In this document: one piece after another, positions 2,619 through 28,620 of the stretch
Numbering within the stretch: the stretch's first letter is position 1
How the letters are laid out: the number at the start of each line of letters is the position of its first letter
Assembly: GCF_034092395.1 (NCBI RefSeq)
Contig: NZ_CP139301.1
Location: forward strand, 930,001 to 994,000
Length of the DNA stretch: 64,000 bases
Origin: Prochlorococcus sp. MIT 1307
GTDB lineage: Bacteria; Cyanobacteriota; Cyanobacteriia; PCC-6307; Cyanobiaceae
Direction of reading: 5' to 3'
Program-made: the position numbers and the translations under genes
The notes under the pieces: generated by a model
Seen by the model: only the letters and a program-made list of their open reading frames with translations
Told to the model about the DNA's origin: nothing
The model's database searches: none

Positions 2619-3275
2619 TTATAAGGGACCAGAAATACCTTGTTTGCGAATCATAAGAAAGTGCATGAGCATGAAAACTGCAAGCGCCCAGGGCAGAACA
2701 AAAGTATGAAGACTATAAAAGCGAGTAAGTGTTGATTGTCCGACACTTTCTCCACCTCGGAGCAATTCAACCATGAAATCTCCAATCACTGGAATTGCAG
2801 CCGGCACCCCAGAAACAATTTTGACAGCCCAATAACCAACTTGATCCCATGGGAGTGAGTACCCAGTTACACCAAATGCAACAGTAATCACAGCCATAGT
2901 CACACCTGTAATCCAAGTAAGTTCTCTTGGCCTTTTAAAGCCTCCAGTCAGATATACACGGAAGACGTGCAAGATTAGGCATAGCACCATCATTGAGGCA
3001 CTCCAACGATGCACTGAGCGAATCAACCACCCAAAACTCACATCAGTCATCAAAGCGCTAACTGAGCTATAGGCCTCTGTAACAGTTGGCTTGTAGTAAA
3101 AAGTCATCGCGAAGCCAGTCGCGAACTGAATCAAAAAACAAACTAAAGTGATTCCTCCCAAGCAATAAAAGATATTGACGTGAGGTGGGACGTATTTTGA
3201 AGTGACGTCATCCGCTATGTCCTGAATTTCAAGACGTTCCTGGAACCAGTCATAGACGGGTGAGGAGTTCGCCAT
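2619..3275 (-). CDS. petB: Cytochrome b6
   Basis: The heme-carrying core of the cytochrome b6f complex, moving electrons across the thylakoid membrane. The 218-residue protein has four transmembrane helices. The paired histidines that bind the two b hemes are present in [17 protein letters not shown] and in [19 protein letters not shown]. The cysteine that attaches heme c' is seen in IFYCLGG. It is the first gene of petBD and is transcribed away from ctpA; its promoter must lie in or overlap the start of the ctpA frame. Confidence 0.98.
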
Positions 3276-3342
3276 TTATGAGGTGAGCTTGTATCCCAAC
3301 ACTCTACTGAATGCTCCAAGGTCCTTGCCAAGGATCAATCCA

Positions 3343-4671
3343 ATGCAGCCATCTTTTAAATCCTGGTCAAAAGCTCTTTGGCGCCTTTTTACGGCGTTAT
3401 GCATAGTTACCTGCTGTGCGTTTCTTAATGCACCAATCACATTTGCCCTAAACGATGGTCAGCAAATCGTTTTAGAAAGTTGGACGCTAGTTAATCAGGG
3501 CTATTTAGACCCCAAAAAATTCGACAAAATTCAATGGAGACGTCTAAGGGAAAAAGCACTCGAAAGCCCTATTACAACAAGTGAAGAGGCTTATTCTGCT
3601 ATCGAGAAAATGCTTATTCCTTTAGGAGATCCTTACACAAGGCTATTGAGGCCTAAGGATTACAACGCAATGAAAGAAAGCAATCTTGGAAGCGAAATTA
3701 ATGGGGTCGGTCTTCAATTAGGAGCCAGAAGCGAAGATGGGCAAATTGTTGTTATTGCTCCTTTAGAAGGGTCTCCAGCAGCTGATGCAGGTGTGGTAAG
3801 CGGAACATTATTACTAAAAGTGAACGGAGAATCTCCTCAAAACCTTGGCTTAGAAGCAACTGCAGCAAGACTTCGAGGAGAAATTGGATCGCAAGTAATA
3901 GTTGAAGTCAAAGCACCTCAAGGAGAAAGCGAAGAACTAACCCTTGAACGCCGCAGTGTTGATTTGCGCCCAGTTCGCACTCGCCGTCTAAGAGATAAGT
4001 CCCACACTATTGGATACCTTCGCATTACCCAATTCAGTGAGAGTGTTCCAAGCCAAGTCAAAGAAGCCCTTCAAGAACTTGCTGAAAAAGAAGTAGAAGG
4101 ACTGGTTCTTGATTTGCGAAACAATTCAGGTGGACTAGTGAGCTCTGGACTAGCTGTCGCAGATGCTTTTCTTAGCAATAAACCAATAGTTGAAACCAAG
4201 AATCGTGAGGGTATTAGTGATGCCATACCTGCAGGGATTGATACTCTTTATGACGGTCCAATGGTGACTATTGTTAATGGGGGTACTGCAAGTGCAAGCG
4301 AGATCCTTGCAGGAGCTCTCCAAGATAATGATCGTTCTCAACTAATTGGGAGTAATACTTTTGGGAAGGGCCTAATACAGTCATTAAGCACCCTGAGTGA
4401 TGGCAGTGGACTTGCAGTAACTGTTGCAAGCTATTTAACTCCCAATGGCATCGATATACAAAATCAAGGACTAAAACCCGACCGTCTTTTAGATATGCCA
4501 GAACCAATTAACCCAGGAAGTGATGAAGATCGTTGGATTCAAGATGCAGAACTACTTATGAGCGCCATTCTTGAACGTCAAATAATTGAAAAATCATCTA
4601 CACATCCAATCAAATCAGATTCAACAGAAACCACCTTAGGCCTTGAAAATCAAATTCCTATGCCTAATTAA
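3343..4671 (+). CDS. ctpA: Carboxyl-terminal processing protease (S41)
   Basis: Lumenal or periplasmic serine protease of the CtpA/Prc family; in cyanobacteria the founding member matures the C terminus of photosystem II D1. After a signal-like hydrophobic segment (ALWRLFTALCIVTCCAF) come a PDZ domain (about residues 110-190) and the S41 catalytic domain. The Ser-Lys dyad is visible as GTASASEI (Ser about 317) and FGKG (Lys about 342), separated by 25 residues as in D1 protease. I prefer the ATG at 3343, preceded by AAGGA; a GTG at 3283 in the same frame would add 20 residues and almost touch petB. Paralogues CtpB and CtpC cannot be excluded. Confidence 0.92.
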   Translation: MQPSFKSWSKALWRLFTALCIVTCCAFLNAPITFALNDGQQIVLESWTLVNQGYLDPKKFDKIQWRRLREKALESPITTSEEAYSAIEKMLIPLGDPYTRLLRPKDYNAMKESNLGSEINGVGLQLGARSEDGQIVVIAPLEGSPAADAGVVSGTLLLKVNGESPQNLGLEATAARLRGEIGSQVIVEVKAPQGESEELTLERRSVDLRPVRTRRLRDKSHTIGYLRITQFSESVPSQVKEALQELAEKEVEGLVLDLRNNSGGLVSSGLAVADAFLSNKPIVETKNREGISDAIPAGIDTLYDGPMVTIVNGGTASASEILAGALQDNDRSQLIGSNTFGKGLIQSLSTLSDGSGLAVTVASYLTPNGIDIQNQGLKPDRLLDMPEPINPGSDEDRWIQDAELLMSAILERQIIEKSSTHPIKSDSTETTLGLENQIPMPN

Positions 4672-20387: not shown

Positions 20388-21788
20388 ATGAGATTTCTTT
20401 TAAATCGCGATAACAAATTACCCCTCCTAACCTTGCTTAGGTTGAGCTTATTTCAGGCCTGTTTAGGTTGCCTGGCGGTGATCTTTGCGGGAATGCTTAA
20501 TCGAATAATGATTTCAGAACTTGCATTTCCAGCAATCCTGGTTGGCGGAGGGTTGGCATTCGAGCAATTAATGGCTCCATCCAGAGTTCTTTTTGGGAAC
20601 ATCTCAGACAGCTGGCCCATTCGTGGCAGGAAGAGAACTCCTTACATTTGGCTTGGTGCAGCTGGTTTTTGTTCGATGGCTGTTCTCTCTATTCCTCTCA
20701 TTTTCATTACAGAAGAAGCTTTAAGGCAAGGGAGTTTGATGCCTATTGCTCTTTGCTCAGTAGCTCTCTGCATTCTTTTTTCTCTTTATGGCTTAGCCGT
20801 TTCTATGGCTACCACTCCATACCTCGCCCTTGTCATTGATTTGACTAATGAGCAAGAGCGACCAAAAGCAATCGGGATTATTTGGTGCATGCTCACAATC
20901 GGAATAATAGTTGGGGCAATTGCAATTGCAATTACCACTAAAGGATTAGATGGGGTAAGTGATGTGGAGTTACTAGAACCAGCACTGCAGAAGTTTATGA
21001 TACGGGTGAGTGCAATAGTCTTAGCAATCTCAATATTTGCCTGCTGGGGGATAGAGCCAAAAAACAAAAAGATAGGTACAGGTAAGACAAAGCAAACAAA
21101 GGAGATAGGACTAAAGGAAGCGTGGTCATTAATCACTTCGAGTCCTCAGATAATAATCTTTTTTACCTTTCTAATTCTTTACACATTAGGACTTTTCCTT
21201 CAAGATCCAATACTGGAAAGTTATGGTGCAGAGGTTTTTAACTTACCAATTTCAAAAACGACTCTTCTCAATGCATTTTGGGGAGGAGGGACACTATTTG
21301 GCCTACTTCTTGGTGGATTATGGGTCACTCCACGCCTTGGAAAATTATCAACGGCAAGGATTGGGTGTTGGATGATTATTGTCTCTCTAGGACTTCTAAT
21401 TATTAGTGGGTCTACTCAAACTGTAAACGGACTATATGGAGTACTAGTGATCTTTGGCGTTGCGGCTGGCTTGGCAACTAATAGCGCGCTATCTCTAATG
21501 TTAGATCTAACACTTCCAGAAGTTGCAGGGACTTTTGTAGGTGTTTGGGGACTGGCACAAGCACTGTCTAGAGCAATGGGGAAAGTATTCGGAGGAGGTC
21601 TTCTAGATATCGGAAGAGCAATAACGGCGCCAGAGAATACATACATGGCATTTGCATTTGTTTTCTTGTTAGAAATAATTGTCATGGTTCTTGCTATATT
21701 GGTACTTGAAAAGGTAAGTGTTAAGCGTTTTAGAGAAGAGACTTCTACAAAGATGGAGACTTTTATGATGGCTGAATTAGACGCATAA
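20388..21788 (+). CDS. PucC/BCH-family major facilitator transporter
   Basis: A 466-residue polytopic membrane protein of the BCH1/PucC (LhaA) branch of the major facilitator superfamily, with about twelve hydrophobic helices. The N-terminal pattern MRFLLNRDNKLPLLTLLRLS, MLNRIMISEL and RVLFGNISDSWPIRGRKRTP is family-specific. Purple-bacterial members assist assembly of light-harvesting complexes, and cyanobacterial members are thought to handle chlorophyll or its delivery. Its position 108 bp before the phycoerythrin linker suggests co-inheritance with light harvesting, but a direct role in phycoerythrin is not shown. Confidence 0.88.
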   Translation: MRFLLNRDNKLPLLTLLRLSLFQACLGCLAVIFAGMLNRIMISELAFPAILVGGGLAFEQLMAPSRVLFGNISDSWPIRGRKRTPYIWLGAAGFCSMAVLSIPLIFITEEALRQGSLMPIALCSVALCILFSLYGLAVSMATTPYLALVIDLTNEQERPKAIGIIWCMLTIGIIVGAIAIAITTKGLDGVSDVELLEPALQKFMIRVSAIVLAISIFACWGIEPKNKKIGTGKTKQTKEIGLKEAWSLITSSPQIIIFFTFLILYTLGLFLQDPILESYGAEVFNLPISKTTLLNAFWGGGTLFGLLLGGLWVTPRLGKLSTARIGCWMIIVSLGLLIISGSTQTVNGLYGVLVIFGVAAGLATNSALSLMLDLTLPEVAGTFVGVWGLAQALSRAMGKVFGGGLLDIGRAITAPENTYMAFAFVFLLEIIVMVLAILVLEKVSVKRFREETSTKMETFMMAELDA

Positions 21789-21896: not shown

Positions 21897-22850
21897 ATGT
21901 CTTCTATTCCAGTTGATGCCCTTGCCTTCGGCGGCCAAAGCTTGACAGAGCAACCCATTACCTATGACAAAACTAGAATTTCAGGGAGTACACAAGTTAG
22001 TTATATCCTCCATTCCAAAGGAGGTTGCATGCCAGGACAGCAAGAACTGTTTATGACCAATTCAAGAACCAGTCCTGGCATTGGAGACAAGGTTAGCGAC
22101 AATAAAGTCATGAGAGCATTTAGGCGTGAAAGATATTTAGAGGGTCAAGTTCCAATGCGAACTAAATTCCCAAAAACTGCAAGAGATTCCTTTACTTATG
22201 ATGAATATGTACCTAATGATGATGAATCACTAAACCTGGCTATTAAGTCTTCTTACCGCCAGGTCTTTGGTAACTTCCACCTGATGGAAAGTGAGCGGCC
22301 AATAGAATTAGAAAGGAGGCTTAGGAATGGGGATCTAGTTATTCGAGAGTTCATCAGATTACTTTCAAAGTCAGAATTTTATAAAGCTCATTATTTGGAA
22401 AATGTGTCTCAACAAAGGTGCATTGAACTAAACTTTAAACATCTCTTAGGCAGACCACCATTACACCAACAAGAGGTAATTGAAAGTATAGAAGTGATGT
22501 CAGAAGAAGGCTTTGATAGCCATGTTGACAAGCTAATAGATTCAATTGAATATCAGGAAGCCTTTGGCCCATTTATTGTTCCATATCAACGTTGCTGGAA
22601 TTCACCAAGTGGTGCCAGAACATCAAGCTTCATTAATACTTATTATCTAACACAAAGTTTCGCGACTAGCGACAATGCACTTCATAAGCGAAAAACACTT
22701 TCAAGCGAAAAAAGTGGAGTAAGTCAATTAGTTCACAGTTTAACAAATAAAAGCCCATATGAAATTATTTTTCCCAAGCATGCTGAATACCTATCAACAA
22801 AGAAGAAAGAATCAGACACAGTACTAATCAATGAATCATTCCCAAGTTAG
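21897..22850 (+). CDS. ppeC: Phycoerythrin-associated linker polypeptide
   Basis: A 317-residue linker with one PBS-linker domain (PF00427-type, about residues 68-200, with SYRQVFGNFHLMESERPIEL, GDLVIREFIRLLSKSEFY and NFKHLLGRPPLHQQEV). The N-terminal extension contains a lone cysteine (about C44, in SKGGCMPGQQ), roughly where marine Synechococcus gamma-type PE linkers carry a bilin; chromophore attachment here is inference. Since the window holds no allophycocyanin or phycocyanin genes, the linker may organise or anchor free phycoerythrin rather than rods. GAGGA lies just upstream of the start. It leads the ppeC-unknown-cpeS-cpeT run. Confidence 0.88.
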   Translation: MSSIPVDALAFGGQSLTEQPITYDKTRISGSTQVSYILHSKGGCMPGQQELFMTNSRTSPGIGDKVSDNKVMRAFRRERYLEGQVPMRTKFPKTARDSFTYDEYVPNDDESLNLAIKSSYRQVFGNFHLMESERPIELERRLRNGDLVIREFIRLLSKSEFYKAHYLENVSQQRCIELNFKHLLGRPPLHQQEVIESIEVMSEEGFDSHVDKLIDSIEYQEAFGPFIVPYQRCWNSPSGARTSSFINTYYLTQSFATSDNALHKRKTLSSEKSGVSQLVHSLTNKSPYEIIFPKHAEYLSTKKKESDTVLINESFPS

Positions 22851-22899: not shown

Positions 22900-23088
22900 A
22901 TGTCAATACTTCACCCACCATCTGATGAAAGACCTGGCGATCAATCTTCAAAAACGCCCTCAGGCAAGGAGATTCCAACTGCAATGTCAATGATGGTTGA
23001 TTCAATGGTCAGAATGATCCAAAAAGCAAATAAGAATACTTCAAATCTAGATAGTGAAGAAGCCAAGGACAGTTTTGATGACAATTGA
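22900..23088 (+). CDS. Small unknown protein inside the phycoerythrin operon
   Basis: A 62-residue ORF starting MSILHPPSDERPGDQSSK. It is hydrophilic and Ser/Pro-rich at first, then has a Met-rich, probably helical stretch (TAMSMMVDSMVRMIQKANK) and an acidic end. The cpeS ATG lies inside its last codons (overlap 23078-23088), which suggests translational coupling. A longer frame from 22831 would overlap ppeC. I recognise no family. Its place between linker and lyase genes points to a phycoerythrin-related job, which is inference. Confidence 0.62.
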   Translation: MSILHPPSDERPGDQSSKTPSGKEIPTAMSMMVDSMVRMIQKANKNTSNLDSEEAKDSFDDN

Positions 23089-23611
23089 GCAGTTTGTTGC
23101 TCGAAGCGAAGGAGAATGGAGATCTATGAGGAGTGGGCACTCACTTGCTTTTCAGCAATTCGAGCAAATCCTCAGTACCATCACAGTCAAAATATTAGGA
23201 GGCAATGACCCAAGAGTTATAGATCTACTAAGCTCAAGTCCTGAAAATAGAGCAAAGTACACAACACCATTCTTGATTCAATGGGAAGCAGAAAGTGACT
23301 GGTCTAAAGAGATTAGTAAAGAGAATAGCTCAGGCTCTAGCATATTGATTCCAATCCCAAAAACAAAATCTAGTGGTTTGCTTATAAGAAGTATTGGTTA
23401 TACAGAGGCTATTCCATTAATATCAACATACTGCTTCTTAAGTGATGGTACATTCAAGCTAAAGAGTAAATACGAGAAAACGACTACTGAAGAACGTATC
23501 TGGCACCTCTCAGAGAATGTCCGCTGTCGGTCATCGGTGGTCTACACAACAAAAACATCAGGGATATTGCAAACTTCCTTTGCCTCAGAAATCAAGCATC
23601 TCAAGCCTTAA
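23078..23611 (+). CDS. cpeS: Phycoerythrobilin lyase CpeS
   Basis: CpcS/CpeS-type bilin lyase; family members attach phycoerythrobilin to the Cys-82 site of the phycoerythrin beta subunit. I take the start at the ATG giving MTIEQFVARSEGEWRSMRSG, which matches the normal start of the family (a short N terminus before the xGxWxSxRS motif), giving 177 residues. A longer frame from 23054 lies inside the preceding ORF. Conserved parts include SGHSLAFQQFEQ, IQWEAESDW and LSENVRCRSSVV. cpeT follows after 21 bp. Confidence 0.93.
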   Translation: MTIEQFVARSEGEWRSMRSGHSLAFQQFEQILSTITVKILGGNDPRVIDLLSSSPENRAKYTTPFLIQWEAESDWSKEISKENSSGSSILIPIPKTKSSGLLIRSIGYTEAIPLISTYCFLSDGTFKLKSKYEKTTTEERIWHLSENVRCRSSVVYTTKTSGILQTSFASEIKHLKP

Positions 23612-23632: not shown

Positions 23633-24244
23633 ATGATAAGAACTAAAAGTCCACTGCTGCAATTCGCCGAAAACCTCTCAGGCAAGTATTCAAATGTTGA
23701 GCAAGCTCAAAAAAATCCCAGGGATTTTGCTCATATTAATATTTACTTTTTACCAATAGAGTGGTCAATTTTACAAGGAGCATGGTTCTACTCGGAACAA
23801 AGCTATGACTACGCACCTTGGTCACCTTATAGGCAAGGCATACATCAAATTCTAAGTATAGATAATATTTTTATAGTTGAAAACTATTCACTAAATTCGC
23901 CTGAAAAGTTTGCTGGTAGTGGCTTTATGCCAGATCTACTAAAAGACATACGAGAAAATTCTTTTCGTAAAAGAGATGGTTGTGCCATGCATTTCACTCA
24001 AGTCAGTTCAGATATTTATTTAGGAAAGGTTGAGCCTGGGCAAAGGTGTCTAATTCAGAAAGGAGACAGAATGTCCTATCTAGTTAGCAATATTGAATTA
24101 AGAAAAGATAAATGGCTAAGCTTAGATGAAGGGTTTGACCTTAATACAAATAAGAAGATCTGGGGTGCTGAACATGGCTATTTAAAATTCAAAAAAATCC
24201 AAAACTTCAAAAATCTCTTTGTTGATCAATGGCTAGAATTATGA
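23633..24244 (+). CDS. cpeT: Bilin lyase CpeT
   Basis: CpcT/CpeT-family chromophore lyase; relatives attach bilin to the Cys-165 site of phycoerythrin or phycocyanin beta subunits. The 203-residue protein shows the family features NLSGKYSNVEQAQKNP, WSILQGAWFYSEQSYDYAPW, PYRQGIHQI, and a Cys-containing DGCAMHFT. It is the last gene of the rightward run; cpeY converges on it with 17 bp between the stop codons. Confidence 0.93.
   Translation: MIRTKSPLLQFAENLSGKYSNVEQAQKNPRDFAHINIYFLPIEWSILQGAWFYSEQSYDYAPWSPYRQGIHQILSIDNIFIVENYSLNSPEKFAGSGFMPDLLKDIRENSFRKRDGCAMHFTQVSSDIYLGKVEPGQRCLIQKGDRMSYLVSNIELRKDKWLSLDEGFDLNTNKKIWGAEHGYLKFKKIQNFKNLFVDQWLEL

Positions 24245-27523: not shown

Positions 27524-28003
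<480 letters not shown>

Positions 28004-28050: not shown

Positions 28051-28620
<570 letters not shown>

Follow-up and report, generated by a model that had tools for sequence, protein, structure and literature searches.

The window, meaning the whole stretch of 64,000 nucleotides that we analysed, contains a group of phycoerythrin (PE) genes and, directly upstream of the lyase gene cpeS, a small open reading frame, unk6. The features of the region are as follows.

21897-22850, + strand: PE-associated linker gene, ppeC/cpeC-like (PF00427, E 3.8e-44)
22900-23088, + strand: unk6, a 62-aa ORF from ATG to TGA (open frame; start and frame conserved in homologues; purifying selection)
22900-23022, + strand: conserved core of Unk6, residues 1-41, consensus RPPS..RPGDQSS.TPSGK..P.AMSMMVDSMVRMIQ (pooled pN versus pS)
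22981-23034, + strand: predicted amphipathic helix rich in Met (residues 28-45), modelled better than the rest of Unk6 (AlphaFold2, hydrophobic moment)
23078-23088, + strand: 11 b (ATGACAATTGA) shared by the 3' end of unk6 and the beginning of cpeS
23078-23611, + strand: cpeS, phycoerythrobilin lyase family (PF09367, E 1.4e-51)
23633-24244, + strand: cpeT (PF06206, E 9.4e-54)
27524-27991, - strand: presumably the PE alpha subunit gene, cpeA-like (PF00502), so assigned from gene order and length
28051-28599, - strand: what we take to be the PE beta subunit gene, cpeB (PF00502)

Outside the high-light-like clade, 12 other genomes of the Prochlorococcus type have a CpeB that is 86-95% identical to the window's. 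Directly upstream of the linker gene, at 20388-21788, lies a gene for a PucC-family membrane protein (PF03209).

The unk6 frame begins with the ATG at 22900 and ends with the TGA at 23086-23088, without an internal stop. An alternative in-frame ATG at 22831 would extend it to 85 aa; homologues agree instead on the start at 22900. The linker gene ends at 22850, 49 b before unk6, and the ATG of cpeS lies at 23078. A preliminary description of this DNA had likewise placed the gene between the linker (ppeC) and cpeS, with an overlap of 11 bases. That description had also assigned the protein to no known family, and Pfam and NCBIfam indeed gave no significant match, the best being DUF3020, whose E of 0.071 misses the cut-off for that family. 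Solved structures were discarded as homologues, since the best E of 4.7 is meaningless. The gene had further been presumed undescribed, which does not hold: its location, its length and its occurrence in Prochlorococcus identify it as the gene that Six et al. 2007 (PMC2246261) named unk6.

Conservation of the frame and selection on it

Homologues of Unk6 were confined almost entirely to one family. Matches occurred in 26 of 60 genomes, the window's own counted, all of them in that family (E up to 0.001). A class-wide sample gave 30 matching genomes out of 242 (E up to 0.01), 29 of them within the family; the sole match outside it, in G400, is marginal (E 0.007), falls outside the helix and lies in a 434-aa frame. 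Phage transfer of unk6 was considered and rejected: a search of 50,697 phage records gave nothing, and none of 32 candidate viral-contig stretches was confirmed.

Of the 49 Unk6-type loci from the named collection, all but one stand immediately before cpeS; the exception, L071, is a separate paralog. With the aligned CpeS start as reference, the overlap with cpeS is 11 b in 36 of the 48 loci, 4 b in two and 1 b in two; in the other eight there is a gap of 9-16 b. The recurrent ending of the D-E-N type coincides with the cpeS start in another reading frame, and we therefore do not read it as a protein motif.

Selection was quantified on 54 sequences (the window, 48 named loci and five high-light-like copies), taking as usable the pairs with a synonymous divergence of 0.1-1.5. 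In the 350 usable pairs out of 1431 the median dN/dS was 0.24, with 99.7% of values below 1 and a maximum of 1.20. This selection is concentrated in residues 1-41 (pooled pN 0.167 versus pS 0.577); residues 42-58 are nearly free (0.490 versus 0.568). The preliminary description had named an unconserved frame or a high nonsynonymous rate among close relatives as grounds for giving up the gene, and we found the frame conserved and the nonsynonymous rate low. Positions 22900-23088 are a real, conserved protein-coding gene of ocean picocyanobacteria.

A Met-rich helix is the best-modelled part of Unk6

The Met-rich helical segment pointed out in the preliminary description reappeared in our model. 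Residues 27-41 of the window's Unk6 read TAMSMMVDSMVRMIQ, and AlphaFold2 predicts a single helix at residues 28-45 with low-confidence ends (pLDDT about 81 at residues 31-40, mean of the whole model 59.9). The hydrophobic moment of the window's helix exceeds that of 99% of shuffles; amphipathicity is clear in the window's copy and weaker in those of Synechococcus and of the high-light-like genomes.

Unk6 is linked to CpeS and CpeB yet dispensable

We searched 80 chosen genomes with CpeS and CpeT (both at E 1e-15), 37 of them also with CpeB and 19 with the linker. The labels high-light-like (g18) and low-light-like (g79) used here are tentative assignments of our own, made on gene content and genome size. 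CpeS matched in 68 of the 80 genomes, in G067 only through a 29% paralog, leaving 67 with a cpeS ortholog. In these, an unk6 match lies directly upstream of cpeS in 52 (the broken copy of G004 counted) and is missing beside cpeS in 15, namely 13 low-light-like genomes, G086 and G075, all such counts being of related genomes rather than of independent events.

In the high-light-like clade, all 14 genomes tested carry unk6 beside cpeS and also carry cpeB; a fifteenth, G260, lay outside the 80 searched. No cpeT was found in any of the 14 (E 1e-15), nor any PE linker (E 0.001), the same linker search being positive in all five other genomes. In the five loci of this clade that we read (L094, L125-L128), the gene order is unk6, cpeS and then a convergent cpeB.

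The low-light-like clade has cpeS and cpeT in 13 of 15 genomes, and in all 13 loci read there is no Unk6 between the linker and the adjoining cpeS. The remaining two genomes lack the whole region, uvrD included, which probably reflects an assembly gap. In G086, a genome 70% complete, the gap of about 230 b upstream of cpeS holds no recognisable unk6. In G004 (L131, 2393-2545) the unk6 copy is broken by two stops; the linker gene and cpeS that flank it are both open. CpeS, CpeT and linker genes are all kept where Unk6 is lost or broken, that is, in the low-light-like clade, G086 and G004. G075 has a divergent frame bearing the helix in the place of unk6, and the match of G087, which crossed a stop in the genome search, proved on reading of the locus to be a short intact copy. 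Judged from genus labels, not from a tree, the losses perhaps represent about three independent events.

Absence from Synechococcus without PE counts among the traits of the unk6 of Six et al. 2007, and eight genomes without a cpeS ortholog bear on it. Three of them (G012, G083 and G091) gave no Unk6 match at E 0.001, and five (G016, G030, G060, G065 and G067) gave a weak one (E 3e-5 to 5e-4), which in G016 and G067 is confined to the helix and corresponds to the sufE-linked frame described below.

Some further observations concern the neighbouring genes. The PucC-like gene was not found in any of seven low-light-like and five high-light-like genomes tested, and G102 has a broken fragment of it. 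Its loss does not go together with that of Unk6: G036, G100 and the five high-light-like genomes bear Unk6 and also lack the PucC-like gene, and we rejected this connection. Beside an open cpeS and unk6, cpeT matches run over stops in G021 (C2:235432-236001, one stop) and G121 (C1:303870-304448, two stops); these may be breaks or only frayed ends of the matches.

Unk6 is therefore linked to CpeS and CpeB and is nevertheless dispensable, since other lineages keep cpeS without it; an obligatory subunit of CpeS is contradicted. The proposal that the protein is a lyase partner or PE assembly factor thus divides in two. Synteny supports a functional link to CpeS and PE, and so does the fact that the reduced, high-light-like clade has kept unk6 along with cpeS and cpeB. 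An obligatory partnership with the lyase is contradicted by the 13 of 13 low-light-like genomes and G086, which have an open cpeS and no Unk6, and by the broken copy of G004 beside an open cpeS. The proposal is reasonable once "partner" is weakened to "accessory".

Long paralogs combine the Unk6 domain with 11-residue repeats

Several Prochlorococcus-type genomes encode separate proteins in which the N-terminal domain of Unk6 is followed by 11-residue coiled-coil repeats, e.g. RARADLERVDQ, in about 4 to 7 copies as counted by eye. The same kind of repeat occurs in some copies within the PE operon, which end as the short Unk6 does.

L082 3195-3455, L083 3239-3616, L085 2751-3101, L098 2538-2831 and L071 5986-6345: separate Unk6-domain proteins, away from PE genes
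L067 6001-6312, L068 5992-6270, L086 about 3097-3408 and L122 2281-2592: Unk6 copies of the PE operon in which 11-residue repeats precede the overlap with cpeS

For the long PE-operon form the prediction is one helix from residue 27 to 102, the Met-rich segment passing unbroken into the coil; this model used an alignment of three sequences and a single chain, which places the oligomeric state outside its reach. In Pfam, five long paralogs matched Apolipoprotein, ATP-synt_B and other families; we set these matches aside, as they miss the cut-offs and are probably due to the composition of the coil.

Among Prochlorococcus-type genomes, all 15 that have lost Unk6 or carry a broken copy encode the long paralog, and we read its repeats in all 15 (the protein of G004 is cut by the contig end); of the 30 with an intact Unk6, 4 encode it (G008, G021, G082 and G094). 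The association with Unk6 loss has a Fisher p of 1e-8, calculated without correction for kinship. The pattern suggests that the long form may cover for a lost Unk6. G207 and G255 were at one point candidates for PE-less genomes with a long paralog. We dropped them, because they lack not only cpeS, cpeT and cpeB but also uvrD, so that an assembly gap is likely.

A similar helix occurs in small frames near sufE

A small conserved frame found elsewhere ends in ALSMMVSSMVRMVQAG....SRW, a helix like that of Unk6 followed by an RW motif. Five loci were read first.

L087 2570-2815, L088 2781-3071, L089 2489-2767, L090 2570-3004 and L092 2594-2866: sufE-linked small frames

A sufE gene (PF02657) lies downstream in the three of these five loci that were tested (L087, L088 and L092), with another ORF in between in L087. 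The frame has no conserved ATG, and the one example tested had no Pfam match. Strong matches to the family (E below 1e-8) occur in 18 of 119 relatives; of nine of these 18 tested for cpeS, eight lack an ortholog, and the ninth, G075, has one. In a profile comparison, the Unk6 helix aligned with the sufE-linked family over 21 columns with a probability of 96.6. The two helices may be homologous or convergent, and the sufE-linked frame itself is putative. Since a like helix is found in genomes without a cpeS ortholog, the partner of the helix may not be PE-specific.

Proposed role of Unk6

We tentatively favour the reading, although slightly worse than even chances attach to it, that Unk6 is a dispensable helical accessory of the maturation step involving CpeS and CpeB, with its helix docking or oligomerising. 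Ribosomes that terminate at the unk6 stop would reinitiate on cpeS, so that the two proteins would be made in matched amounts. The Met-rich helix at residues 28-45 would dock on CpeS or on apo-CpeB, or would join copies of Unk6. By this route Unk6 could assist or localise the attachment of bilin to the PE beta subunit, or the early folding of that subunit, improving the step rather than enabling it. Where Unk6 is lost, the separate paralog, which shares its N-terminal domain and adds a coil of 11-residue repeats, may take its place. Since the high-light-like clade keeps Unk6 without the linker or CpeT, Unk6 probably needs neither of them as a partner. Four observations count against the accessory role: the absence or breakage of Unk6 upstream of cpeS in the low-light-like clade, G086 and G004; the like helix in a small frame of genomes without a cpeS ortholog; the weaker amphipathicity of the Synechococcus and high-light-like copies; and the reported behaviour of CpeS from MED4, which is said to attach bilin to beta-PE in vitro with no Unk6 present.

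Other readings share part of this evidence. The 11-b stop/start overlap of 36 of the 48 named loci, together with the nearly unconstrained tail of residues 42-58, is what one might expect if unk6 were a translational coupler whose main effect, by termination-reinitiation, is on the amount of CpeS made, the peptide itself mattering little. We consider this improbable. Amino-acid selection on residues 1-41 is strong, the protein is still kept in the 8 of 48 loci where a gap of 9-16 b replaces the overlap, and separate paralogs retain the Unk6 domain away from cpeS. It is also conceivable that Unk6 acts in PE turnover instead of assembly, by analogy with NblA, a phycobilisome-degradation adaptor of about 60 residues that binds rods and a Clp chaperone. 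Unk6 resembles NblA in size, in being helical and in its tie to phycobiliprotein genes. However, it has no Pfam match to NblA (a scan at E up to 1 yields only DUF3020, 0.071), its gene stands among synthesis genes and is tied to that of the lyase, and it persists in genomes that have cpeB and cpeS but neither cpeT nor the linker, so that such an adaptor is the least probable of the readings considered here.

A further reading is that of a general picocyanobacterial helix, in which Unk6, the repeat proteins and the sufE-linked frame bind one partner (a membrane, a chaperone or a protease adaptor) or pair with themselves, and the PE operon only recruited the helix. The 21-column profile match points this way, as do the occurrence of the sufE-linked family in genomes mostly lacking a cpeS ortholog and the helix of the long form, predicted to continue unbroken into the coil. 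On the other hand, likeness over 21 Met-rich columns can arise by convergence, the sufE-linked frame is putative and lacks a conserved ATG, and the separate and PE-operon forms differ inside the helix (MVRMIQ versus MASMIQ or MTSMVE types); we hold this reading to be unlikely, though well ahead of the coupler. A wider proposal that includes the PE role has a marginally better, still low, standing: judging by sequence comparison, the helix AMSMMVDSMVRMIQ might be a lineage-specific picocyanobacterial module used in at least three small-protein settings (Unk6, the repeat proteins and the sufE-linked frame), which would oligomerise or dock on a common partner, would organise CpeS/CpeB maturation in PE cells, and whose coil form would replace a lost operon copy.

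The accessory role that we favour touches on a wider matter. The role of the last PE genes in very streamlined high-light Prochlorococcus is an unsettled question, for which a passage of PMC4890579 suggests photoreception rather than light harvesting. As a high-light-like clade keeps unk6 with cpeB and cpeS, in genomes in which our searches gave neither cpeT nor the linker, unk6 is a concrete candidate for inclusion in that question.

Comparison with known systems

The CpeS lyase family (PF09367) is the genetic neighbour of Unk6 and, on genomic grounds, its probable partner; its domain is absent from Unk6, for which a single helix with low-confidence ends is predicted.

The closest counterpart is the unk6 of Six et al. 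2007. Passages of that paper (PMC2246261) describe, for marine Synechococcus as well as Prochlorococcus, a gene upstream of cpeS that annotation software often overlooks and whose products of 57-61 aa are well conserved in PE-bearing Synechococcus; Table 4 shows it missing from RCC307. The window's ORF occupies the same place, immediately before cpeS within the PE region, and is similar in length, with 62 aa and no recognised domain. Seven Synechococcus loci (L072-L078), which served for our comparison in place of the sequences of the 2007 paper, have homologues of 60-61 aa upstream of cpeS, with best segments 35-46% identical. The same passages state, with data not shown there, that all Prochlorococcus strains carry unk6, whereas we find no unk6 beside cpeS in any of the 13 low-light-like genomes that have cpeS, nor in G086, and only a broken copy in G004. 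The paralogs and the forms with 11-residue repeats are part of the present data and absent from those passages. In the literature searched, this paper alone joins the name unk6 with the phycobilisome; we found no later paper, no function assigned to unk6, and neither the losses nor the modular paralogs in print. What was known already is thus the gene and its name; what is new is its distribution and losses, its co-retention with cpeS and cpeB, the paralogs, the repeat-bearing copies and the sufE-linked helix.
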